A stretch of 64,000 nt of DNA, taken from positions 1 to 64,000 of the forward strand of contig OW028582.1 of NCBI GenBank assembly GCA_932294295.1, read 5' to 3'. Made by a program: the position numbers and the translations under genes. Source of the DNA: Alitta virens. Taxonomy: Eukaryota; Annelida; Polychaeta; Phyllodocida; Nereididae. How positions within the stretch are numbered: position 1 is the stretch's first letter; every line of letters starts with the position of its first letter. Shown here in pieces: positions 2,354 to 62,645 of this stretch. Under the pieces are notes generated by a model. That model ran no database searches. It worked only from the letters and a program-made list of their open reading frames with translations, and had not been told where the DNA came from.

Positions 2354-4906
2354 ATGAATCGCCTATGTGATTCTAGTGACACCAAACTTCTGTTTAGATA
2401 TATACAGGCGACCCACCACAGAAGCCAAGTCTTGCAGACACCTAGAGGCTTGCTTAAGATGCAAAGCAAACTAAATTCATTCATTAAGGTAGCAGCCCCC
2501 AACCCAATACAAATAAAGAGAGTGAGTGACATCAATGCAGATTGGGCAAAAAGCCAATCACAGGCCATGCAGGCACACTACAATGATCTCCTTGGTACGG
2601 CCAAAACTACAATCAAGGACCGTACTTTTACCCAGGAGTCATTCAACCAGGCTTGGAATGGCGCCTTAAAATGGGCCAAACAATCCTTGGGTGATAAACT
2701 TGCCCAAAACACCATAGACACCTGTAGGGGTGTCTGCCGACATTCGGCCATGCTAGGTGCTCCCCAAAACCACCAACAGCCCCAACCGAGCACCTCTGCA
2801 TCCACAGCCCCCCCTATCACACCCTCCATACCAACCAATGAGGAGTGGACAGTGGTAACCAGAAAACAGCGCTGGCCCATTCACCAACAAAACTTAACTG
2901 CCGTCGCTGGAGCTGGTGATGCCCTATCTAATTTTTTTAAATTTTCCTTTTGGTTCAATGGCAAACGCCACCACTCTGTTGAACAGGCTTACCAGATGTC
3001 CAAAGCTCACTGGATGGGCAATCTGAAGGCTTTCCACCAGATAGCTGCCACCACAACTGCCCCTGAGGCCAAGAGAGCCAGCGACCACTGGTTTAAGTCA
3101 GACCACTTTAAAAGGGCCCAAGGTAACAATGTGTATATTAGGAAAAGATTAGAGGAGTGGGACAGGCAGAGGTCCACTCGGGTCATGCACTTGCTGAGAG
3201 AAAAAGCAAAGCAGTGCAAACCCTTCATGCAGGCCTTAAGAAACAGTAACACCAGTGCCATTATTCATAATGTAACAGACCGGTTTTGGGGCACTGGCAG
3301 TAGAGAGGTGAGACAAACTAATGCCACCAACACTTTCGGGCACCTGCTCGAACAAGTAAGATTTGAGACCTTGGGACTGAGAACGGAGAGGGGGCCAGCG
3401 CCTAGGGCGAGCCCAGCAGAACAAAAAGGCAGGAAGGCACCACCTCCAGAGTGCAGGAAACAGACCTACGCGTCTGTGACTCTGGCAGGACCAAAAGAGG
3501 CAAGGGCAGCCTCCAAAGAGACCCAGGGGAGTAGGAAGGCACCTACCAGGCAGCCAACCCCTGTGGTAGAGAAGGGACAAACAAATGGAAAGGGAGGCAG
3601 AAAGGACCCCAGGGTCCAGCTCCAACCACAAATCTTGGTGCCAACCAAGGAAACCACCACTAGGGACAACCAGACAACCATCTCAGTCTCCCCACCAAAA
3701 CCCCAACGCAAATGGAATTCAAAAGACCGGCGTTCATATAAAAGAGCAAGGCAAGCAGCATCCCAGGAAGGTTCCCCCACGGGACCTAGGTCGCCGGCTC
3801 AAGAAACCAAGAGGGCTCGACACCTGTCGGGCTCTGAATGTGATATAGGGACGGTGCCTACCAGGCGTCCGTCTACCGGGCCAGATGTTGTAAGTTTGTC
3901 TGTAGGTGTCCACCATTCTTCCCTTAACTCATTAGAGTATCCTTCCCTAGACGAAGCCGAGAGGACAATGACAGGAATGCCAACCGGATCCCCTAAGTCA
4001 CTCGCGGGTACTAGCCCTATGACCATTCCCTCTGGGTTTAAGGTCCCACTGCAAGAGTCCGGCTCTACAGTGGCGCAGGGTGAATCCCCGGCCAAGCCTA
4101 CTTCTCCTGCCAGACCCAACCTGGGCGAGGCCCCTTTATCTCCTCTATCTACCTCTTTACCACCTAACCTTCTTCCTCCCACAGTGGAACCTCTCTCTTC
4201 ATCCCTCTGGAACCCTGTTCCTTCCATTTCAAAATCACCACATATTTCAACATCACAACCAGCCAGACCTATTACTGAATTTTTTGGACCCAAAACCACT
4301 AAAGTACTCAAGTTCACCACACTGAAAAGCAACCAATCTGGTGAAACTTTTGTTAGAAGCCAGGTGAGTCGATTTGAGCACGGCAACAATAAAAAAGCAT
4401 GGCAGCTCCCAGCTATCAATAAAACAGTCTTAATTATAGGGGACTCCAACCTTTCATCAGTTAGACAGATCCGACAGGCAGCTGCTACCAGCTGTCAAAT
4501 TATTTCTTATCCAGGGGCCAAATATAAAGAACTTTATGACATCTTAAGAAAGGTAACAGAACCTCAGACTCAAGTCAAGCACCTAATTCTAAGTATTGGT
4601 ATCAACAACAGAGCGCAGAATGCCTTATCTACAGCCAACAAAGATATCCGCTCCTTAATTTTTCAAGCCATGGAGAAATTTCCAAAGGCCAAAGTATATT
4701 ATCCTGAAATTGGCAACCACCTACCCAATCTTAAAGAAATGAGTAATCTCAGAGACTTCCATAAAACTTGGTCATCATACCCATCCATCACAATCCTACC
4801 ATCAATCACTCCAATCCGAACCACAGCACCCGATGGGATCCACTGGACTTGGGACACTGCCAAGCTCCTGGTGGATTCTTGGTTAGATCACCTTAATTTA
4901 AACTAA
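2354..4906 (+). CDS. PLE ORF1: NADAR domain plus SGNH hydrolase domain (copy 1)
   Basis: The protein is 850 aa; its ATG has A at -3. Residues 1-130 are unassigned and mostly helical-looking. Residues about 186-337 form a NADAR (YbiA/DUF1768) domain: LSNFF 191-195, SVEQAYQ 208-214, DRFWGTG 309-315 and a closing TFGHLLEQVR 327-336. NADAR proteins bind ADP-ribose compounds, and some remove ADP-ribose from guanine in DNA. Residues 340-640 are a Pro/Ser-rich, basic, probably disordered linker with likely nuclear signals (RRSYKRAR 459-466, KRAR 486-489). A degenerate PIP-like ITEFFGPK lies at 640-647. Residues 690-850 form an SGNH/GDSL hydrolase: GDSN 696-699 (S698), G721, GINN 749-752, DGIH 827-830 (D827, H830). 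Esterase domains occur in other retroelement ORF1s; I know of no PLE described with NADAR. The NADAR assignment is strong. DNA de-ADP-ribosylation as its role is inference. Confidence 0.9.
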   Translation: MNRLCDSSDTKLLFRYIQATHHRSQVLQTPRGLLKMQSKLNSFIKVAAPNPIQIKRVSDINADWAKSQSQAMQAHYNDLLGTAKTTIKDRTFTQESFNQAWNGALKWAKQSLGDKLAQNTIDTCRGVCRHSAMLGAPQNHQQPQPSTSASTAPPITPSIPTNEEWTVVTRKQRWPIHQQNLTAVAGAGDALSNFFKFSFWFNGKRHHSVEQAYQMSKAHWMGNLKAFHQIAATTTAPEAKRASDHWFKSDHFKRAQGNNVYIRKRLEEWDRQRSTRVMHLLREKAKQCKPFMQALRNSNTSAIIHNVTDRFWGTGSREVRQTNATNTFGHLLEQVRFETLGLRTERGPAPRASPAEQKGRKAPPPECRKQTYASVTLAGPKEARAASKETQGSRKAPTRQPTPVVEKGQTNGKGGRKDPRVQLQPQILVPTKETTTRDNQTTISVSPPKPQRKWNSKDRRSYKRARQAASQEGSPTGPRSPAQETKRARHLSGSECDIGTVPTRRPSTGPDVVSLSVGVHHSSLNSLEYPSLDEAERTMTGMPTGSPKSLAGTSPMTIPSGFKVPLQESGSTVAQGESPAKPTSPARPNLGEAPLSPLSTSLPPNLLPPTVEPLSSSLWNPVPSISKSPHISTSQPARPITEFFGPKTTKVLKFTTLKSNQSGETFVRSQVSRFEHGNNKKAWQLPAINKTVLIIGDSNLSSVRQIRQAAATSCQIISYPGAKYKELYDILRKVTEPQTQVKHLILSIGINNRAQNALSTANKDIRSLIFQAMEKFPKAKVYYPEIGNHLPNLKEMSNLRDFHKTWSSYPSITILPSITPIRTTAPDGIHWTWDTAKLLVDSWLDHLNLN
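4897..4906 (+). promoter_or_regulatory. Candidate -1 ribosomal frameshift site TTTAAAC-TAA (copy 1)
   Basis: The zero frame reads T TTA AAC TAA, the canonical X XXY YYZ slippery heptamer followed at once by the ORF1 stop. Slipping back one base gives TTT AAA, then CTA ATT TTG CCA, which is open into ORF2. The -1 frame is closed just upstream by TAA at 4894-4896, so the shift window is only about ten bases wide and the heptamer lies in it. I see no strong downstream stem or pseudoknot by eye; only a weak AACTT/AAGTT hairpin lies near 4976-4988. The stop codon itself may act as the pause. Confidence 0.65.
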
Positions 4907-7194
4907 TTTTGCCAAGTCAATCAAACTTACTAAAGCCATCAAGCACTACATCAAAGAAAGATCTGGATAATGAAGAACTTAAAAAGTTAGGAATTTTAAA
5001 TTTATCTACTCATTTTAAAATCAAAAGCCACCATGCAAACTTACTTCAGAAAGGTCTATCCTTTGTTCCTGTCCAGAAGAATACTCCAACAGAACAATTT
5101 TCATCTGGTATTGACAAATTTGTAAGAAATCTGAAAATAAAATTCACAAATTTCAACTTTAACCAACAACAGGTCAGTAAATTCAAAATTCCATCAAATT
5201 ACATACCTTATCCTGGGTCCTACCCACCGGACATTGATCAGCTATCCATCTTGCTGAAACAGGAACTGAGGAAAATACCTGAAAAAGTAAACATCAAAGA
5301 AAATCTAACCAAAGAAGATAGGAATGCCATCAAAGAATTAAAGGACAAATCCGCCATAGTAATTAAGTCAGCAGACAAAGGGTCAGCCATTGTTATTATG
5401 GATAGGAAAGATTATGTCTTTGAAGCTGAACGGCAACTAAAAATCAATAGACATTACAGGGAAATAGATGAACCCCAGTTCCCTAGGAACTGTGAAATTT
5501 TCAATAGAATTTTAAATGAGATGAAACTCAAAGGCCTTATTTCAAGCAAGGAGATAAACTTCCTAAGAACTACCCAAGATGCAAGAGAACGTATCTTTTA
5601 TTTATTACCTAAAATCCACAAAGAAACAAACAAGTGGACTGTTCCTGACAAAATACCACCGGGGAGGCCTATAGTAAGTGATGTAAATTCTGAGTCATAC
5701 GCAATTTCTAAATTTATTGATTATCACTTGGCTCCATATGCAACCAGCCATCCAGCATATGTAAAAAACACTTATGATTTCTTGGATAAAATTCAAACTA
5801 TTAAAACTCATCCAAATGCTCTTTTAATTTCCCTAGATGTAGACAGTCTATATACCAACATTGACAATGAAATGGGTATCAGGGCTGTAACTGAAAAATT
5901 TGCTACAGACCCAAAACCTATTCATAAGTACATCATTAAATTACTCCGTTTATCCCTAGAAGGAAATGACTTTATCTTTGATGGCAAACATTATTTACAG
6001 GTTTCTGGTACAGCTATGGGTAAGAAGTTTGCTCCTCACTACGCCGATATAACTATGGCATATTGGGAGGCAAACAATCTTACTAGATGTGAAAACCAAC
6101 CTAGAATTTATCTGAGATATTTAGATGACATTTTTATGATCTGGGAACATCCAAGAGAAACCTTTGATGATTTTTTTAATGTTCTGAACACTGCTCATCC
6201 CAATATAAAACTCAAATCTAACATCCAGGAAACTGAACTAGAATTCCTGGATGTCCTAATTTACAAGGGTGACATCTTTAACCAGTCTGGTACTTTCGAC
6301 ACTAAAGTATATTTCAAACCCACTGATTCACATGCATTGCTCCACAAACAATCATTCCACCCAAATCATACCTTTGCTGGAATCATTAAGTCACAACTAG
6401 TTAGATTTGGTCGAATCTGCCAATTAGAAAAAGATTTCGATGAGGCCACCAGCATCTTGTTTAGGGCACTTTATCCCAGGGGCTACTCGAAGAGATTCCT
6501 CAGAGACATCAAGTCCAAAACCAAGGTCCAGTTCTTTCCTCCAGACCACCTCACAGGCATGAAACCCTGCAAGAGACCACGCTGCAGCATCTGCAAATAT
6601 GTCAACACAGACAAAACTGTCAACACAAGTTCAAAGGAGGTAAAACTTTTTGCTAATGGGAATTGCGACACCCAAGTCGCCATTTATCTAATAAGCTGTA
6701 AGCAATGTCCACAGACACATTATGTGGGCCAAACAATCAATCTTAGAGGGAGAATACTCAGTCACCTAAGCTCAATCAGAAAAAACAGTGACAAGAAGGT
6801 ACACCAGCATTTTAAGTCTCCCAACCACAGTTTAGCTGATATTTCAATCACCATCTTGGAAATACCAAAATCTAATAAACAACAATTGTTAGATAGAGTA
6901 GAAAAGCAGTGGATTCGGAAAATTGACTCATTTCATCAGGGTTTAAATTCAGATTTAGGCAACACTCAAGGGGATGTTTGCACATTCATATTGCAACACC
7001 ATCCCACTTCTCAACGACTAGTTAAAATTGCAAGGGACTGGTTAGATGATTTTAAATCAAACTCATCAAGGTTCAAAAAACACCCAGTCACTATTATAAA
7101 AGCAAATGCTAGAAACAAGAATCTATCACAGCACTTAGTTAGAGCTATGCTAAAAGACCCCAATCCAGAAGATCCAGATCTTCCTTCTACATAA
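4897..7194 (+). CDS. PLE ORF2: reverse transcriptase with GIY-YIG endonuclease (copy 1)
   Basis: The frame is open from 4897 and has no ATG until residue 164 (numbering from TTG at 4909), inside the RT N-terminal region, so entry by -1 frameshift from ORF1 is likely. PLE RT motifs in order: SADKGSAIVIMD 154-165, LLPKIHK 232-238, GRPIVSDVNS 252-261, motif A SLDVDSLYTNI 308-318 (D310), motif B GTAMGKKFAPHYADI 367-381, motif C YLRYLDDIF 401-409 (D406, D407), motif D LEFLDVLIY 444-452. A Cys motif CKRPRCSIC (C554, C559, C562) leads into GIY-YIG: AIYLISC 591-597, HYVGQT 604-609, R613, H619, E665. All expected catalytic residues are present. RT would copy the element RNA and the nuclease would nick target DNA. 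PLE RTs are relatives of telomerase RT. Confidence 0.93.
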   Translation, partial: FKLILPSQSNLLKPSSTTSKKDLDNEELKKLGILNLSTHFKIKSHHANLLQKGLSFVPVQKNTPTEQFSSGIDKFVRNLKIKFTNFNFNQQQVSKFKIPSNYIPYPGSYPPDIDQLSILLKQELRKIPEKVNIKENLTKEDRNAIKELKDKSAIVIKSADKGSAIVIMDRKDYVFEAERQLKINRHYREIDEPQFPRNCEIFNRILNEMKLKGLISSKEINFLRTTQDARERIFYLLPKIHKETNKWTVPDKIPPGRPIVSDVNSESYAISKFIDYHLAPYATSHPAYVKNTYDFLDKIQTIKTHPNALLISLDVDSLYTNIDNEMGIRAVTEKFATDPKPIHKYIIKLLRLSLEGNDFIFDGKHYLQVSGTAMGKKFAPHYADITMAYWEANNLTRCENQPRIYLRYLDDIFMIWEHPRETFDDFFNVLNTAHPNIKLKSNIQETELEFLDVLIYKGDIFNQSGTFDTKVYFKPTDSHALLHKQSFHPNHTFAGIIKSQLVRFGRICQLEKDFDEATSILFRALYPRGYSKRFLRDIKSKTKVQFFPPDHLTGMKPCKRPRCSICKYVNTDKTVNTSSKEVKLFANGNCDTQVAIYLISCKQCPQTHYVGQTINLRGRILSHLSSIRKNSDKKVHQHFKSPNHSLADISITILEIPKSNKQQLLDRVEKQWIRKIDSFHQGLNSDLGNTQGDVCTFILQHHPTSQRLVKIARDWLDDFKSNSSRFKKHPVTIIKANARNKNLSQHLVRAMLKDPNPEDPDLPST

Positions 7195-7330: not shown

Positions 7331-7379
7331 AAACCCTGAACCCTAACCCTAACCCTGACCCTAACCCCAACCCTAACCC
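7331..7379 (+). repeat. Degenerate telomeric tract at 3' end of PLE copy 1
   Basis: 49 bp of CCCTAA-type repeats with fixed variants (CCCTGA twice, CCCCAA once) end at AACCC and join the next unit at AGCGAGTGCC. The same variants in the same order occur in all three copies, so this tract is carried by the unit and not added afresh each time. Confidence 0.95.
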
Positions 7380-9146: not shown

Positions 9147-9971
9147 TTAGAATTGTTTAAGAGTCAATTAGACATTGATATATCAGCTTAGCAATATTTT
9201 TAGTTAGGACCTTACATAGACTTTTGCTTTGTTTTTGTAACTTTTTGCTAAAATTAGGACCTTACATAGCCTTTTTTCATTGCCTTTACATTGCCTAAAT
9301 TGATATATCAGCTTTTAGCATATATTTAAAATTAGTACATTGACCTTTTTTTTGTGTTTCTAACTTTTTTGCCAAAATTAGCATCTTACTTAGCTAATTT
9401 ATTTTCACAATAACATTAGCATTTTAGAATTGTTTAAGAGTCAATTAGACATTGAAATATCAGCTTAGCAATATTTTTAGTTAGGACCTTACATAGACTT
9501 TTGCTTTGTTTTTGTAACTTTTTTGCTAAAATTAGGACCTTACATAGCCTTTTTTCATTGCCTTTACATTGCCTAAATTGATATATCAGCTTTTAGCATA
9601 TATTCAAAATTAGTACCTGACATTTGACCTGTTTTTGTGATTCTAACTTTTTTGCCAAAATTAGCACCTTACTTAGCTAATTTATTTTTACAATAACATT
9701 AGCATTTTAGAATTGTTTAATTAGACATTGATATATCAGCTTAGCAATATTTTTAGTTAGGACCTTACATAGACTTTTGCTTTGTTTTTGTAAACTTTTT
9801 GCTAAAATTAGGACCTTACATAGCCTTTTTTCATTGCCTTTACATTGCCTAAATTGATATATCAGCTTTTAGCATATATTCAAAATTAGTACCTGACATT
9901 GACCTTTTTTTGTGATTCTAACTTTTTTGCCAAAATTAGCACATTACTTAGCTAATTTACTTTCACAAAAA
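9147..9971 (+). repeat. Three ~280-bp tandem repeats in PLE leader (copy 2)
   Basis: Blocks begin at 9147, 9424 and 9707. The number of blocks is the same in all three PLE copies, although such repeats usually vary in number, which again points to very recent copying of the unit. Confidence 0.85.
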
Positions 9972-10579: not shown

Positions 10580-13132
10580 ATGAATCGCCTATGTGATTCT
10601 AGTGACACCAAACTTCTGTTTAGATATATACAGGCGACCCACCACAGAAGCCAAGTCTTGCAGACACCTAGAGGCTTGCTTAAGATGCAAAGCAAACTAA
10701 ATTCATTCATTAAGGTAGCAGCCCCCAACCCAATACAAATAAAGAGAGTGAGTGACATCAATGCAGATTGGGCAAAAAGCCAATCACAGGCCATGCAGGC
10801 ACACTACAATGATCTCCTTGGTACGGCCAAAACTACAATCAAGGACCGTACTTTTACCCAGGAGTCATTCAACCAGGCTTGGAATGGCGCCTTAAAATGG
10901 GCCAAACAATCCTTGGGTGATAAACTTGCCCAAAACACCATAGACACCTGTAGGGGTGTCTGCCGACATTCGGCCATGCTAGGTGCTCCCCAAAACCACC
11001 AACAGCCCCAACCGAGCACCTCTGCATCCACAGCCCCCCCTATCACACCCTCCATACCAACCAATGAGGAGTGGACAGTGGTAACCAGAAAACAGCGCTG
11101 GCCCATTCACCAACAAAACTTAACTGCCGTCGCTGGAGCTGGTGATGCCCTATCTAATTTTTTTAAATTTTCCTTTTGGTTCAATGGCAAACGCCACCAC
11201 TCTGTTGAACAGGCTTACCAGATGTCCAAAGCTCACTGGATGGGCAATCTGAAGGCTTTCCACCAGATAGCTGCCACCACAACTGCCCCTGAGGCCAAGA
11301 GAGCCAGCGACCACTGGTTTAAGTCAGACCACTTTAAAAGGGCCCAAGGTAACAATGTGTATATTAGGAAAAGATTAGAGGAGTGGGACAGGCAGAGGTC
11401 CACTCGGGTCATGCACTTGCTGAGAGAAAAAGCAAAGCAGTGCAAACCCTTCATGCAGGCCTTAAGAAACAGTAACACCAGTGCCATTATTCATAATGTA
11501 ACAGACCGGTTTTGGGGCACTGGCAGTAGAGAGGTGAGACAAACTAATGCCACCAACACTTTCGGGCACCTGCTCGAACAAGTAAGATTTGAGACCTTGG
11601 GACTGAGAACGGAGAGGGGGCCAGCGCCTAGGGCGAGCCCAGCAGAACAAAAAGGCAGGAAGGCACCACCTCCAGAGTGCAGGAAACAGACCTACGCGTC
11701 TGTGACTCTGGCAGGACCAAAAGAGGCAAGGGCAGCCTCCAAAGAGACCCAGGGGAGTAGGAAGGCACCTACCAGGCAGCCAACCCCTGTGGTAGAGAAG
11801 GGACAAACAAATGGAAAGGGAGGCAGAAAGGACCCCAGGGTCCAGCTCCAACCACAAATCTTGGTGCCAACCAAGGAAACCACCACTAGGGACAACCAGA
11901 CAACCATCTCAGTCTCCCCACCAAAACCCCAACGCAAATGGAATTCAAAAGACCGGCGTTCATATAAAAGAGCAAGGCAAGCAGCATCCCAGGAAGGTTC
12001 CCCCACGGGACCTAGGTCGCCGGCTCAAGAAACCAAGAGGGCTCGACACCTGTCGGGCTCTGAATGTGATATAGGGACGGTGCCTACCAGGCGTCCGTCT
12101 ACCGGGCCAGATGTTGTAAGTTTGTCTGTAGGTGTCCACCATTCTTCCCTTAACTCATTAGAGTATCCTTCCCTAGACGAAGCCGAGAGGACAATGACAG
12201 GAATGCCAACCGGATCCCCTAAGTCACTCGCGGGTACTAGCCCTATGACCATTCCCTCTGGGTTTAAGGTCCCACTGCAAGAGTCCGGCTCTACAGTGGC
12301 GCAGGGTGAATCCCCGGCCAAGCCTACTTCTCCTGCCAGACCCAACCTGGGCGAGGCCCCTTTATCTCCTCTATCTACCTCTTTACCACCTAACCTTCTT
12401 CCTCCCACAGTGGAACCTCTCTCTTCATCCCTCTGGAACCCTGTTCCTTCCATTTCAAAATCACCACATATTTCAACATCACAACCAGCCAGACCTATTA
12501 CTGAATTTTTTGGACCCAAAACCACTAAAGTACTCAAGTTCACCACACTGAAAAGCAACCAATCTGGTGAAACTTTTGTTAGAAGCCAGGTGAGTCGATT
12601 TGAGCACGGCAACAATAAAAAAGCATGGCAGCTCCCAGCTATCAATAAAACAGTCTTAATTATAGGGGACTCCAACCTTTCATCAGTTAGACAGATCCGA
12701 CAGGCAGCTGCTACCAGCTGTCAAATTATTTCTTATCCAGGGGCCAAATATAAAGAACTTTATGACATCTTAAGAAAGGTAACAGAACCTCAGACTCAAG
12801 TCAAGCACCTAATTCTAAGTATTGGTATCAACAACAGAGCGCAGAATGCCTTATCTACAGCCAACAAAGATATCCGCTCCTTAATTTTTCAAGCCATGGA
12901 GAAATTTCCAAAGGCCAAAGTATATTATCCTGAAATTGGCAACCACCTACCCAATCTTAAAGAAATGAGTAATCTCAGAGACTTCCATAAAACTTGGTCA
13001 TCATACCCATCCATCACAATCCTACCATCAATCACTCCAATCCGAACCACAGCACCCGATGGGATCCACTGGACTTGGGACACTGCCAAGCTCCTGGTGG
13101 ATTCTTGGTTAGATCACCTTAATTTAAACTAA
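10580..13132 (+). CDS. PLE ORF1: NADAR plus SGNH hydrolase (copy 2)
   Basis: An intact 850-aa reading frame with the same translation as copy 1, inside the only complete unit of the window. NADAR is encoded at about 11135-11590 and SGNH at about 12647-13129. The final sense codon AAC (13127-13129) is the last codon of the slippery heptamer, so the SGNH domain runs directly up to the frameshift point. Confidence 0.9.
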   Translation: MNRLCDSSDTKLLFRYIQATHHRSQVLQTPRGLLKMQSKLNSFIKVAAPNPIQIKRVSDINADWAKSQSQAMQAHYNDLLGTAKTTIKDRTFTQESFNQAWNGALKWAKQSLGDKLAQNTIDTCRGVCRHSAMLGAPQNHQQPQPSTSASTAPPITPSIPTNEEWTVVTRKQRWPIHQQNLTAVAGAGDALSNFFKFSFWFNGKRHHSVEQAYQMSKAHWMGNLKAFHQIAATTTAPEAKRASDHWFKSDHFKRAQGNNVYIRKRLEEWDRQRSTRVMHLLREKAKQCKPFMQALRNSNTSAIIHNVTDRFWGTGSREVRQTNATNTFGHLLEQVRFETLGLRTERGPAPRASPAEQKGRKAPPPECRKQTYASVTLAGPKEARAASKETQGSRKAPTRQPTPVVEKGQTNGKGGRKDPRVQLQPQILVPTKETTTRDNQTTISVSPPKPQRKWNSKDRRSYKRARQAASQEGSPTGPRSPAQETKRARHLSGSECDIGTVPTRRPSTGPDVVSLSVGVHHSSLNSLEYPSLDEAERTMTGMPTGSPKSLAGTSPMTIPSGFKVPLQESGSTVAQGESPAKPTSPARPNLGEAPLSPLSTSLPPNLLPPTVEPLSSSLWNPVPSISKSPHISTSQPARPITEFFGPKTTKVLKFTTLKSNQSGETFVRSQVSRFEHGNNKKAWQLPAINKTVLIIGDSNLSSVRQIRQAAATSCQIISYPGAKYKELYDILRKVTEPQTQVKHLILSIGINNRAQNALSTANKDIRSLIFQAMEKFPKAKVYYPEIGNHLPNLKEMSNLRDFHKTWSSYPSITILPSITPIRTTAPDGIHWTWDTAKLLVDSWLDHLNLN
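13123..13132 (+). promoter_or_regulatory. Candidate -1 ribosomal frameshift site (copy 2)
   Basis: TTTAAAC occupies 13123-13129 and the ORF1 TAA 13130-13132. Phase and context are unchanged from copy 1. Confidence 0.65.
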
Positions 13133-15556: not shown

Positions 15557-15605
15557 AAACCCTGAACCCTAACCCTAACCCTGACCCTAACCCCAACCCT
15601 AACCC
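15557..15605 (+). repeat. Degenerate telomeric tract at 3' end of PLE copy 2
   Basis: Same length and variant order as the tract at 7331-7379; it forms the junction between copies 2 and 3. Confidence 0.95.
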
Positions 15606-17372: not shown

Positions 17373-18197
17373 TTAGAATTGTTTAAGAGTCAATTAGACA
17401 TTGATATATCAGCTTAGCAATATTTTTAGTTAGGACCTTACATAGACTTTTGCTTTGTTTTTGTAACTTTTTGCTAAAATTAGGACCTTACATAGCCTTT
17501 TTTCATTGCCTTTACATTGCCTAAATTGATATATCAGCTTTTAGCATATATTTAAAATTAGTACATTGACCTTTTTTTTGTGTTTCTAACTTTTTTGCCA
17601 AAATTAGCATCTTACTTAGCTAATTTATTTTCACAATAACATTAGCATTTTAGAATTGTTTAAGAGTCAATTAGACATTGAAATATCAGCTTAGCAATAT
17701 TTTTAGTTAGGACCTTACATAGACTTTTGCTTTGTTTTTGTAACTTTTTTGCTAAAATTAGGACCTTACATAGCCTTTTTTCATTGCCTTTACATTGCCT
17801 AAATTGATATATCAGCTTTTAGCATATATTCAAAATTAGTACCTGACATTTGACCTGTTTTTGTGATTCTAACTTTTTTGCCAAAATTAGCACCTTACTT
17901 AGCTAATTTATTTTTACAATAACATTAGCATTTTAGAATTGTTTAATTAGACATTGATATATCAGCTTAGCAATATTTTTAGTTAGGACCTTACATAGAC
18001 TTTTGCTTTGTTTTTGTAAACTTTTTGCTAAAATTAGGACCTTACATAGCCTTTTTTCATTGCCTTTACATTGCCTAAATTGATATATCAGCTTTTAGCA
18101 TATATTCAAAATTAGTACCTGACATTGACCTTTTTTTGTGATTCTAACTTTTTTGCCAAAATTAGCACATTACTTAGCTAATTTACTTTCACAAAAA
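17373..18197 (+). repeat. Three ~280-bp tandem repeats in PLE leader (copy 3)
   Basis: Blocks begin at 17373, 17650 and 17933. The acceptor-like TTGTAG before ORF1 ends at 18725 in this copy. Confidence 0.85.
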
Positions 18198-18805: not shown

Positions 18806-21358
18806 ATGAATCGCCTATGTGATTCTAGTGACACCAAACTTCTGTTTAGATATATACAGGCGACCCACCACAGAAGCCAAGTCTTGCAGACACCTAGAGG
18901 CTTGCTTAAGATGCAAAGCAAACTAAATTCATTCATTAAGGTAGCAGCCCCCAACCCAATACAAATAAAGAGAGTGAGTGACATCAATGCAGATTGGGCA
19001 AAAAGCCAATCACAGGCCATGCAGGCACACTACAATGATCTCCTTGGTACGGCCAAAACTACAATCAAGGACCGTACTTTTACCCAGGAGTCATTCAACC
19101 AGGCTTGGAATGGCGCCTTAAAATGGGCCAAACAATCCTTGGGTGATAAACTTGCCCAAAACACCATAGACACCTGTAGGGGTGTCTGCCGACATTCGGC
19201 CATGCTAGGTGCTCCCCAAAACCACCAACAGCCCCAACCGAGCACCTCTGCATCCACAGCCCCCCCTATCACACCCTCCATACCAACCAATGAGGAGTGG
19301 ACAGTGGTAACCAGAAAACAGCGCTGGCCCATTCACCAACAAAACTTAACTGCCGTCGCTGGAGCTGGTGATGCCCTATCTAATTTTTTTAAATTTTCCT
19401 TTTGGTTCAATGGCAAACGCCACCACTCTGTTGAACAGGCTTACCAGATGTCCAAAGCTCACTGGATGGGCAATCTGAAGGCTTTCCACCAGATAGCTGC
19501 CACCACAACTGCCCCTGAGGCCAAGAGAGCCAGCGACCACTGGTTTAAGTCAGACCACTTTAAAAGGGCCCAAGGTAACAATGTGTATATTAGGAAAAGA
19601 TTAGAGGAGTGGGACAGGCAGAGGTCCACTCGGGTCATGCACTTGCTGAGAGAAAAAGCAAAGCAGTGCAAACCCTTCATGCAGGCCTTAAGAAACAGTA
19701 ACACCAGTGCCATTATTCATAATGTAACAGACCGGTTTTGGGGCACTGGCAGTAGAGAGGTGAGACAAACTAATGCCACCAACACTTTCGGGCACCTGCT
19801 CGAACAAGTAAGATTTGAGACCTTGGGACTGAGAACGGAGAGGGGGCCAGCGCCTAGGGCGAGCCCAGCAGAACAAAAAGGCAGGAAGGCACCACCTCCA
19901 GAGTGCAGGAAACAGACCTACGCGTCTGTGACTCTGGCAGGACCAAAAGAGGCAAGGGCAGCCTCCAAAGAGACCCAGGGGAGTAGGAAGGCACCTACCA
20001 GGCAGCCAACCCCTGTGGTAGAGAAGGGACAAACAAATGGAAAGGGAGGCAGAAAGGACCCCAGGGTCCAGCTCCAACCACAAATCTTGGTGCCAACCAA
20101 GGAAACCACCACTAGGGACAACCAGACAACCATCTCAGTCTCCCCACCAAAACCCCAACGCAAATGGAATTCAAAAGACCGGCGTTCATATAAAAGAGCA
20201 AGGCAAGCAGCATCCCAGGAAGGTTCCCCCACGGGACCTAGGTCGCCGGCTCAAGAAACCAAGAGGGCTCGACACCTGTCGGGCTCTGAATGTGATATAG
20301 GGACGGTGCCTACCAGGCGTCCGTCTACCGGGCCAGATGTTGTAAGTTTGTCTGTAGGTGTCCACCATTCTTCCCTTAACTCATTAGAGTATCCTTCCCT
20401 AGACGAAGCCGAGAGGACAATGACAGGAATGCCAACCGGATCCCCTAAGTCACTCGCGGGTACTAGCCCTATGACCATTCCCTCTGGGTTTAAGGTCCCA
20501 CTGCAAGAGTCCGGCTCTACAGTGGCGCAGGGTGAATCCCCGGCCAAGCCTACTTCTCCTGCCAGACCCAACCTGGGCGAGGCCCCTTTATCTCCTCTAT
20601 CTACCTCTTTACCACCTAACCTTCTTCCTCCCACAGTGGAACCTCTCTCTTCATCCCTCTGGAACCCTGTTCCTTCCATTTCAAAATCACCACATATTTC
20701 AACATCACAACCAGCCAGACCTATTACTGAATTTTTTGGACCCAAAACCACTAAAGTACTCAAGTTCACCACACTGAAAAGCAACCAATCTGGTGAAACT
20801 TTTGTTAGAAGCCAGGTGAGTCGATTTGAGCACGGCAACAATAAAAAAGCATGGCAGCTCCCAGCTATCAATAAAACAGTCTTAATTATAGGGGACTCCA
20901 ACCTTTCATCAGTTAGACAGATCCGACAGGCAGCTGCTACCAGCTGTCAAATTATTTCTTATCCAGGGGCCAAATATAAAGAACTTTATGACATCTTAAG
21001 AAAGGTAACAGAACCTCAGACTCAAGTCAAGCACCTAATTCTAAGTATTGGTATCAACAACAGAGCGCAGAATGCCTTATCTACAGCCAACAAAGATATC
21101 CGCTCCTTAATTTTTCAAGCCATGGAGAAATTTCCAAAGGCCAAAGTATATTATCCTGAAATTGGCAACCACCTACCCAATCTTAAAGAAATGAGTAATC
21201 TCAGAGACTTCCATAAAACTTGGTCATCATACCCATCCATCACAATCCTACCATCAATCACTCCAATCCGAACCACAGCACCCGATGGGATCCACTGGAC
21301 TTGGGACACTGCCAAGCTCCTGGTGGATTCTTGGTTAGATCACCTTAATTTAAACTAA
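18806..21358 (+). CDS. PLE ORF1: NADAR plus SGNH hydrolase (copy 3)
   Basis: An intact 850-aa frame with no stop or indel, translation identical to the other two copies. NADAR is encoded at about 19361-19816 and SGNH at about 20873-21355. All putative catalytic SGNH residues (S698, G721, N751, D827, H830) are kept even in this innermost and presumably oldest-attached copy. Confidence 0.9.
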   Translation: MNRLCDSSDTKLLFRYIQATHHRSQVLQTPRGLLKMQSKLNSFIKVAAPNPIQIKRVSDINADWAKSQSQAMQAHYNDLLGTAKTTIKDRTFTQESFNQAWNGALKWAKQSLGDKLAQNTIDTCRGVCRHSAMLGAPQNHQQPQPSTSASTAPPITPSIPTNEEWTVVTRKQRWPIHQQNLTAVAGAGDALSNFFKFSFWFNGKRHHSVEQAYQMSKAHWMGNLKAFHQIAATTTAPEAKRASDHWFKSDHFKRAQGNNVYIRKRLEEWDRQRSTRVMHLLREKAKQCKPFMQALRNSNTSAIIHNVTDRFWGTGSREVRQTNATNTFGHLLEQVRFETLGLRTERGPAPRASPAEQKGRKAPPPECRKQTYASVTLAGPKEARAASKETQGSRKAPTRQPTPVVEKGQTNGKGGRKDPRVQLQPQILVPTKETTTRDNQTTISVSPPKPQRKWNSKDRRSYKRARQAASQEGSPTGPRSPAQETKRARHLSGSECDIGTVPTRRPSTGPDVVSLSVGVHHSSLNSLEYPSLDEAERTMTGMPTGSPKSLAGTSPMTIPSGFKVPLQESGSTVAQGESPAKPTSPARPNLGEAPLSPLSTSLPPNLLPPTVEPLSSSLWNPVPSISKSPHISTSQPARPITEFFGPKTTKVLKFTTLKSNQSGETFVRSQVSRFEHGNNKKAWQLPAINKTVLIIGDSNLSSVRQIRQAAATSCQIISYPGAKYKELYDILRKVTEPQTQVKHLILSIGINNRAQNALSTANKDIRSLIFQAMEKFPKAKVYYPEIGNHLPNLKEMSNLRDFHKTWSSYPSITILPSITPIRTTAPDGIHWTWDTAKLLVDSWLDHLNLN
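21349..21358 (+). promoter_or_regulatory. Candidate -1 ribosomal frameshift site (copy 3)
   Basis: TTTAAAC occupies 21349-21355 and the ORF1 TAA 21356-21358. Phase and context are unchanged from copy 1. Confidence 0.65.
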
Positions 21359-23782: not shown

Positions 23783-23906
23783 AAACCCTGAACCCTAACC
23801 CTAACCCTGACCCTAACCCCAACCCTAACCCTAACCCTAACCCTAACCCTAACCCTAACCCTAACCCTGACTAACCCTAACCCTAACCCTAACCCTAACC
23901 CTAACC
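23783..23906 (+). repeat. Telomeric tract joining PLE array to satellite
   Basis: The first 49 bp repeat the variant pattern of the unit's own tract. From 23832 the repeats are almost perfect CCCTAA, with one irregular CCCTGACTAACCC. The tract ends CTAACC and the satellite follows as TTCCTGGG. Satellite monomers read CCCTTCCTGGG, so two bases (CC) belong to both. The strand orientation puts the chromosome end on the left. Confidence 0.97.
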
Positions 23907-62097: not shown

Positions 62098-62313
62098 ATG
62101 AAGGTTATACTTTTGTATGTGTCGGGGCTTTTCATCGGGACGTTGTTGGCAGTGATGATGGCTAAGATGATGATGGGATGCTTTGAATGCTACATGCGAT
62201 ACCGCACCAAGAAGGCAGTGGCAGCAAGGAAGACAGCACCTTTACCACTCCATCCTCAGCTGGTTGTCAAGTTCCGGGCAGAGGTGGACGGGTTACCGGA
62301 GACGTTTGTGTAA
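62098..62313 (+). CDS. Hypothetical small membrane protein (71 aa), possibly a last exon
   Basis: I do not recognise this protein. An ATG with A at -3 opens a 71-aa frame. Residues about 3-26 are a hydrophobic stretch (VILLYVSGLFIGTLLAVMMA then KMMM) fit for one membrane segment or a signal anchor. A Cys pair (CFEC 28-31), a basic patch (RYRTKK 34-39, ARK 43-45) and a short polar tail follow, suggesting a cytosolic basic tail. An AATAAA lies 66 bp after the stop, and acceptor-like sites lie within 32 bp upstream. It could be a complete small gene or the last coding exon of a gene whose upstream part was displaced by the satellite. GC content is visibly higher than in the flanks, which favours real coding. 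Confidence 0.45.
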   Translation: MKVILLYVSGLFIGTLLAVMMAKMMMGCFECYMRYRTKKAVAARKTAPLPLHPQLVVKFRAEVDGLPETFV

Positions 62314-62378
62314 ATCCAACTGTGTATTTTTTAGCCTATAGATATTTAAAATTTTTGTTAAAAGTATGCTTGATCACA

Positions 62379-62384
62379 AATAAA
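62379..62384 (+). terminator. Polyadenylation signal AATAAA
   Basis: Located 66 bp downstream of the stop codon of the 71-aa ORF, a fitting place for its 3' end. Confidence 0.4.
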
Positions 62385-62534
62385 AATATGTTTTTTATAT
62401 ATTCCGTGTTATTTGTTATTTCACTATGTCTGACAAAAATTCTGGCATCGTCAGTGCAGTCAGTCATACAATCATCTAAGCCTCTATATCTGATGAGGCA
62501 TGCAAATATTTCATCACATTGCAGAGGACTGAAT

Positions 62535-62645
62535 GTGAGTGATAATTAGGAGGTATATCAAAGCCTGAGCCTTTCTCATAAATGCATTAAAAGCAGTGTG
62601 AGTGATATTCTTGAGGTTTAGTGAAGCCTGAGTATCTCTCACCAC
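62535..62645. repeat. Imperfect 63-bp tandem duplication
   Basis: GTGAGTGATA at 62535 recurs at 62598. Both are followed by a GAGGT-like stretch and AAGCCTGAG, with TCTC after that. Two diverged units are visible. Confidence 0.65.

Follow-up and report, generated by a model that had tools for sequence, protein, structure and literature searches.

We analysed a 64,000-nucleotide stretch of DNA from Alitta virens (positions 1 to 64,000 of contig OW028582.1; hereafter the window), which opens with an array of a Penelope-like element (PLE). An 8,226-base unit, present three times head to tail, makes up the first 24 kb (1-23906); the window start truncates the first copy within the non-coding 5′ part. 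No difference was seen between units 1 and 2 (0 of 8226 positions), and unit 3 equalled unit 2 over 7379 bases, as far as the telomeric repeats. Each unit holds two open reading frames (ORFs): ORF1, encoding a protein of 850 amino acids, and ORF2, carrying a reverse transcriptase (RT) and a GIY-YIG endonuclease. ORF1 (P0001) runs from an ATG at 2354 to a stop codon at 4906 on the forward strand, as do all features described below within the two ORFs, and identical copies start at 10580 and 18806 (10580-13132 and 18806-21358). According to the reading frame and a structural model, its product consists of an N-terminal helical domain, a NADAR domain (residues 178-341; 2885-3376), a disordered linker and an SGNH hydrolase, in this order.

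The identity of the NADAR domain was supported by profile, structure and family. The Pfam NADAR profile (PF08719) matched residues 191-336 over profile positions 13-159 of 163 (E=8.2e-12; 46.1 bits against a cut-off of 35.1). In an AlphaFold model, residues 181-340 reached predicted local distance difference test (pLDDT) values of 84-96 (means of ten-residue blocks), and residues 178-341 aligned with 8bau, a NADAR in complex with ADP-ribose, revealing a confident NADAR fold. An ORF1 protein search, which scored the 8,000 database candidates with most shared words, yielded 13 matches, all of them carrying PF08719, while a search with the NADAR domain alone added P0135 (NADAR score of 59.0 bits) and the more distant P0136. 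The family alignment (A1) comprised 12 sequences, leaving aside P0002, nearly identical to ORF1, and the truncated P0014, and each of its members matched NADAR individually at E 0.001 (best 2.7e-19). Residue counts given below refer to 13 sequences, namely A1 plus P0135, with the LINE-like (long interspersed nuclear element) P0136 counted apart. An earlier note on this DNA had described a near-complete NADAR signature at residues 186-337. The presence of NADAR in ORF1 is confirmed and the domain stands far above chance; its near-completeness did not extend to the catalytic Glu, which was missing in 13 of 13 sequences. That the middle domain of ORF1 is a NADAR homologue is practically certain.

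NADAR was also the best conserved part of ORF1 when proteins were compared. Among the 12 sequences, its mean pairwise identity was 0.51 with 37 of 158 columns invariant. The N-terminal domain reached 0.47 (8 of 140 columns), SGNH 0.45 (17 of 195) and the linkers 0.21-0.25, with no invariant column. Such conservation argues for a function. The NCBIfam model of riboflavin-intermediate N-glycosidases (TIGR02464) stayed under its cut-off of 73.7 bits in the three proteins scanned (43.3, 50.1 and 50.0 bits), and tblastn with the NADAR domain retrieved 25 phage records whose similarity (best E=6e-5) was too weak to place an origin. No nucleotide relatives were found for ORF1 in viral contigs or plasmids, nor for ORF2 in viral or genome contigs. 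As a separate observation, P0136 (longest contig 6515 bases) is a LINE-like ORF1 with an SGNH-like stretch, a NADAR (E=1.8e-22) and a weak zinc-knuckle match; it pairs NADAR with an SGNH-like domain in what is apparently another type of retroelement, and it retains the catalytic Glu.

The assignment of the element relied on ORF2 (4897-7194), which lies in the -1 frame relative to ORF1 and comprises an RT with a YLDD motif and a GIY-YIG endonuclease (about 6679-6927; Pfam 31.6 bits against a cut-off of 22.6). Pfam RVT_1 did not match this ORF2 at E 0.1. We called it an RT because of the YLDD motif, invariant in 16 ORF2 sequences, and because of its relatives, among which P0016 (81% identical) scored 28.1 against the RVT_1 cut-off of 29.6 and P0019 (70% identical) exceeded it with 35.7. 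Between RT and endonuclease, C557, C562, C565, C589, C600 and C603 were likewise invariant in 16 sequences. A Cys-rich stretch at this place is reported to define the Neptune group of PLEs (PMC3846280) and, judged by sequence, the element is a PLE whose cysteine-rich RT-endonuclease is Neptune-like in this stretch. NADAR-bearing ORF1 is associated with PLE ORF2: in 5 of 14 ORF1 clusters, the longest contig had exactly the same size as that of an ORF2 relative (9499, 6687, 5294, 5025 and 6622) among the 120 matches listed of 2854, and control shifts of 1 to 500 either way (1,000 shifts) produced at most 3 coincidences. We consider it very nearly certain that the NADAR domain belongs to a PLE clade.

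The active site of the 13 PLE domains was compared with 14 sequences, namely YbiA, 8bau (partial), ten phage NADARs, T4 gp30.3 and P0136. The phage NADARs were hand-picked (6 of 645 records, from 40 listed, and 4 of 25), the unannotated L008 being read from its open frame. E210, K217, K240, W269, R/K273, D309 and W312 were kept in 13 of 13 PLE sequences and aligned to P. nicotianae E43, K50, K75, W89, R93, D130 and W133, respectively, which are described at or near ADP-ribose (PMC11543638); residues were mapped by alignment, with an inferred numbering offset of two for chain 8bau. Two of them, E210 (2981-2983), the distal-ribose Glu (E88 in E. coli C7), and K217 (3002-3004), the phosphate-binding Lys (K95), were also present in 14 of 14 comparators. 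The conservation of ligand-facing residues argues for ADP-ribose binding, which on this sequence evidence is probable. One difference concerned the distance from K240 to W269, 29 residues in PLEs versus 14 (K75-W89) in P. nicotianae; this insertion of about 15 residues falls where the adenine-binding residues of P. nicotianae lie. NADAR could also be a mere folding or oligomerising scaffold of ORF1 whose shape was retained, as the loss of the catalytic Glu would allow. However, a scaffold need not keep the invariant E210, K217, K240, W269, D309, W312 and H305, all mapping at or near the P. nicotianae ligand, and this alternative is very improbable.

In the MAFFT alignment, all 12 YbiA-type comparators, and P0136 as well, had Glu in the catalytic column (E125 in P. 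nicotianae; D171 in E. coli C7), whereas all 13 PLE domains and T4 gp30.3 presented His. In the PLE protein, this residue is H305 (3266-3268), placed by alignment and model at or beside the Glu/Asp position, at the end of strand 302-305. With MAFFT, H305 fell into the Glu column in each of 21 runs, made with 7 settings on 3 sequence sets. Against a direct replacement, two of the three methods (HHalign and HMMER) left a one-residue gap at Glu and paired His with the next residue. We nevertheless favour, from sequence and model, that His replaces Glu, because the loop following Glu varies in length among NADARs, P0136 has a Glu at identical spacing, and the model places H305 at the end of the last strand. 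Under either alignment, the aligned sequences have lost the acid and contain one invariant His. That a single invariant His, and not varied residues, took this place argues that the chemistry was kept. With the catalytic Glu/Asp replaced or lost, activity would rest on analogy with the His-type phage protein gp30.3, and we judge a catalytically active domain slightly better than an even bet. Phage gp30.3 NADARs carry His, and the one tested, from an E. coli phage, hydrolysed guanosine-ADP-ribose in vitro (PMC11125620). T4 gp30.3 resembles the PLE domains in its His, as aligned by MAFFT, and in keeping the pocket Glu and Lys.

The principal rival explanation is that the domain would read ADP-ribose instead of erasing it, tethering the ribonucleoprotein to damaged or uncapped chromosome ends through ADP-ribosylated DNA or chromatin. 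A pocket that is kept, yet lacks the catalytic Glu/Asp in 13 of 13 sequences, fits such a reader, and so do the location of the element on telomeric repeats and the report that telomeric DNA can be ADP-ribosylated (PMC11102865), a report that bears out a statement of the earlier note. On the other hand, varied residues would be expected at the catalytic position once the chemistry was lost, and the single invariant His is that of the active phage class. On its sequence predictions, a reader seems rather doubtful.

Overall, we favour an ADP-ribose eraser that acts on the nucleic acid of the element and opposes ADP-ribosyltransferases, with a probability of roughly 0.42. NADAR would most likely release ADP-ribose from nucleic acid by hydrolysis, primarily at N-glycosidic links of the guanine type, and its sites of action could be the RNA, the complementary DNA or the target end of the element. 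It would thereby serve as a counter-measure against ADP-ribosyltransferases of the host or of invaders, in line with the NADARs of animal RNA viruses, for which host ADP-ribosylation has been proposed as the target (PMC9503650). The domain would ride with the RT, as ORF1 is presumably part of the ribonucleoprotein. The step from an active enzyme to one that acts on nucleic acid for the element is tentative, at somewhat less than even odds.

Several points weigh against an eraser. The catalytic Glu of YbiA-type NADARs was found in 0 of 13 PLE sequences, and changing D171 in the E. coli C7 NADAR is reported to abolish efficient hydrolysis (PMC11543638). The specificity of NADAR antitoxins is described as narrow (PMC11125620). 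The analogy with T4 gp30.3 is partial, since this stand-alone phage protein has neither the D..WG nor the N..G motif, both of which are retained in PLE NADARs; according to MAFFT, PLE and His-type NADARs share the His in an otherwise YbiA-like PLE framework, that is, a residue and not a subfamily. Finally, no published assay of a His-for-Glu exchange in a YbiA-like framework was found in the portions of the literature covered.

The substrate could alternatively be RNA or small ADP-ribose derivatives, so that NADAR would contribute to RNA end repair or handle NAD-derived signals or caps, aiding the RNA intermediate and not DNA. The authors of a study on Ectocarpus suggested RNA-intermediate processing for Gypsy and Tx1 NADARs (PMC12477816), and NADARs are reported from RNA viruses as well as from the trans-splicing protein SNA-3. 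However, the activities published in the sources covered are on guanine-ADP-ribose and riboflavin intermediates, where no direct biochemical support for RNA was found, and we regard this alternative as unlikely.

The telomeric context of the array bears on a further possibility. Degenerate (AACCCT)n telomeric repeats of about 8 units were identified by repeat analysis at the 3′ ends of unit 1 (7332-7379, forward strand) and unit 2 (15558-15605), and unit 3 ends in about 20 units (23784-23906), followed by a 47-bp satellite. The earlier description of a retroelement at chromosome ends agrees with a PLE attached to telomeric repeats. We observed that such repeats end every copy despite the element's own GIY-YIG endonuclease, and that the third copy adjoins the longer tract, itself beside the satellite array. 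We infer that the chromosome end lies to the left, because the C-rich strand reads left to right, and that each element points inward with its 3′ end. This is the arrangement expected if the C-rich 3′ tail of the RNA pairs with a G-rich overhang, following the description of Terminons (PMC6431247).

The earlier note had further proposed that the enzyme could remove ADP-ribose from its priming end at the telomere or dampen the host damage response. The tandem copies ending in (AACCCT)n, the continuity of copy 3 with the longer tract, the guanines offered by G-rich overhangs and the DNA-ADP-ribosylation reported at telomeres (PMC11102865) are compatible with this idea. However, the mark reported at telomeres is deposited by PARP1 and taken off by TARG1, an enzyme of the macrodomain type, and was mimicked with a thymidine transferase (PMC11102865), and thymidine-ADP-ribose was not reversed by any of the NADARs tested in a published survey (PMC11125620). 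Activity on PARP-made marks at phosphate ends was not found in the NADAR literature covered. Moreover, telomeric attachment is known from this element alone among its NADAR-bearing relatives, and NADAR occurs in other types of retrotransposons (PMC12477816). Clearing of the priming end is improbable on these grounds, and damping of the damage response is conjecture, so that the earlier interpretation as a whole is partly supported.

The junction between ORF1 and ORF2 suggested how the NADAR domain might be linked to the RT. The two frames share 10 bases, exactly TTTAAACTAA, ORF2 being read in the -1 frame, and the overlap UUUAAACUAA is present in all three copies (4897-4906, 13123-13132 and 21349-21358). 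It contains a TTTAAAC heptamer (4897-4903), in frame U UUA AAC, which abuts the ORF1 stop codon and constitutes a candidate -1 frameshift site. This sequence is a canonical heptamer for -1 slippage. The ORF2 frame lacks any ATG up to residue 168. In 12 of 13 full-length PLE ORF1s the C-terminus is Leu-Asn or Lys-Asn, which U UUA AAC or A AAA AAC could encode, the DNA behind the C-terminus being seen for this ORF1 and the other members being read as proteins. Three results count against frameshifting: a synonymous-codon control gave P ~0.10 for a slippery terminal heptamer, two further in-frame slippery-type heptamers lie within ORF1 (2932 and 4132), and no stem was predicted downstream of the slip site (z +1.62; 197 of 200 shuffles folded at least as well). 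From the sequence, a programmed -1 frameshift into ORF2 is possible. If it works, part of ORF1 would be made as an ORF1-ORF2 fusion, and a share of the molecules would carry NADAR and the esterase fused to RT and nuclease. The most elaborate scenario, in which a chromosome-end element brings its own nucleic-acid de-ADP-ribosylase with His for Glu, frameshift-fused to esterase, RT and GIY-YIG, and strips or reads ADP-ribose on G-rich ends for RT priming, appears quite unlikely.

The earlier note knew of no description of such a domain in PLEs. Our full-text search found no published case among the matches listed, the subscription literature lying mostly outside its scope, but NADAR is in print for Ectocarpus Gypsy Pol and Crassostrea gigas Tx1 LINE ORF1s, where its role is called unclear (PMC12477816). 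Compared by description, those are also YbiA-family NADARs inside retrotransposon proteins, in Tx1 likewise within ORF1, whereas the element reported here is a PLE with GIY-YIG, NADAR followed by SGNH, His for Glu and 3′ telomeric repeats. P. nicotianae 8bau and E. coli YbiA (2b3w) share the fold and most ADP-ribose contacts with the PLE domain, in which the Glu is replaced or lost. An SGNH hydrolase upstream of the RT is also found in ORF1s of CR1/L2/RTEX LINEs and some PLEs (PMC3905857), although here NADAR precedes SGNH. Athena elements and Terminons are similar in their 3′ reverse-complement telomeric repeats, head-to-tail arrays and accessory ORFs, including GDSL esterases (PMC6431247, PMC3846280), but are described as endonuclease-deficient and with a hammerhead ribozyme, unlike this element with GIY-YIG and no Rfam hammerhead match. 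Lake sturgeon GIY-YIG PLEs are likewise reported as bounded by telomere-like repeats; those are described as degraded copies beside a herpesvirus integration, and the main text does not contain the word NADAR (PMC12031113).

With this domain, PLEs join the phages, the giant and RNA viruses and the Gypsy and Tx1 elements among the genetic parasites that encode domains for ADP-ribose processing. Their number suggests ADP-ribosylation as a recurring front between hosts and retroelements. A natural Glu-to-His NADAR also raises the question of whether guanine-ADP-ribose is still erased and whether a retroelement needs this. The roles of eukaryotic NADARs, including those of animals, are stated as unclear (PMC11125620), and vertebrates are reported to lack NADARs (PMC11543638).

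The remaining parts of ORF1 were characterised as follows. The N-terminal helical domain (residues 9-134; 2378-2755) showed helices in the model with block pLDDT values of 67-94, and the single Pfam match obtained for residues 1-139 scored under the cut-off of its family. The linker (residues 347-662; 3392-4339) was predicted to be disordered (pLDDT under 50), the alignment of residues 341-655 giving a mean pairwise identity of 0.21 and 0 invariant columns. The SGNH (GDSL-type) hydrolase domain (residues 675-850; 4376-4903) contained the catalytic set, with S698, G721, N751 and H830 invariant and D827 present as Asp in 10 of 12 sequences and Glu in the other 2. Pfam GDSL scored 15.8 bits on ORF1, below its cut-off of 32.9, and matched 2 of 12 family members at E 0.001; two proteins scored individually were likewise under the cut-off.

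An Rfam scan of the window detected no hammerhead ribozyme and nothing at the gathering cut-off. With the threshold relaxed to E 5, positions 1-24500 gave just two families, SNORD56 (three copies) and mir-5912, which scored below their cut-offs and were taken as chance. Hammerhead core-motif strings occurred three times in the first 8426 bases on both strands, and the one at 646, which was folded, was rejected since its predicted fold was not a hammerhead. Beyond the array, a satellite of approximately 47-bp repeats extends from 23905 to at least 61500, with additional periods of 94 bp, 263 bp and longer. A 120-codon open frame at 62187-62549 matched no Pfam family above its cut-off. Lastly, the stretch of about 3 kb located 5′ of ORF1, devoid of open frames of at least 100 codons, harbours tandem 276-bp repeats, 2.9 copies per unit (938-1742, 9164-9968 and 17390-18194), which are possibly regulatory.

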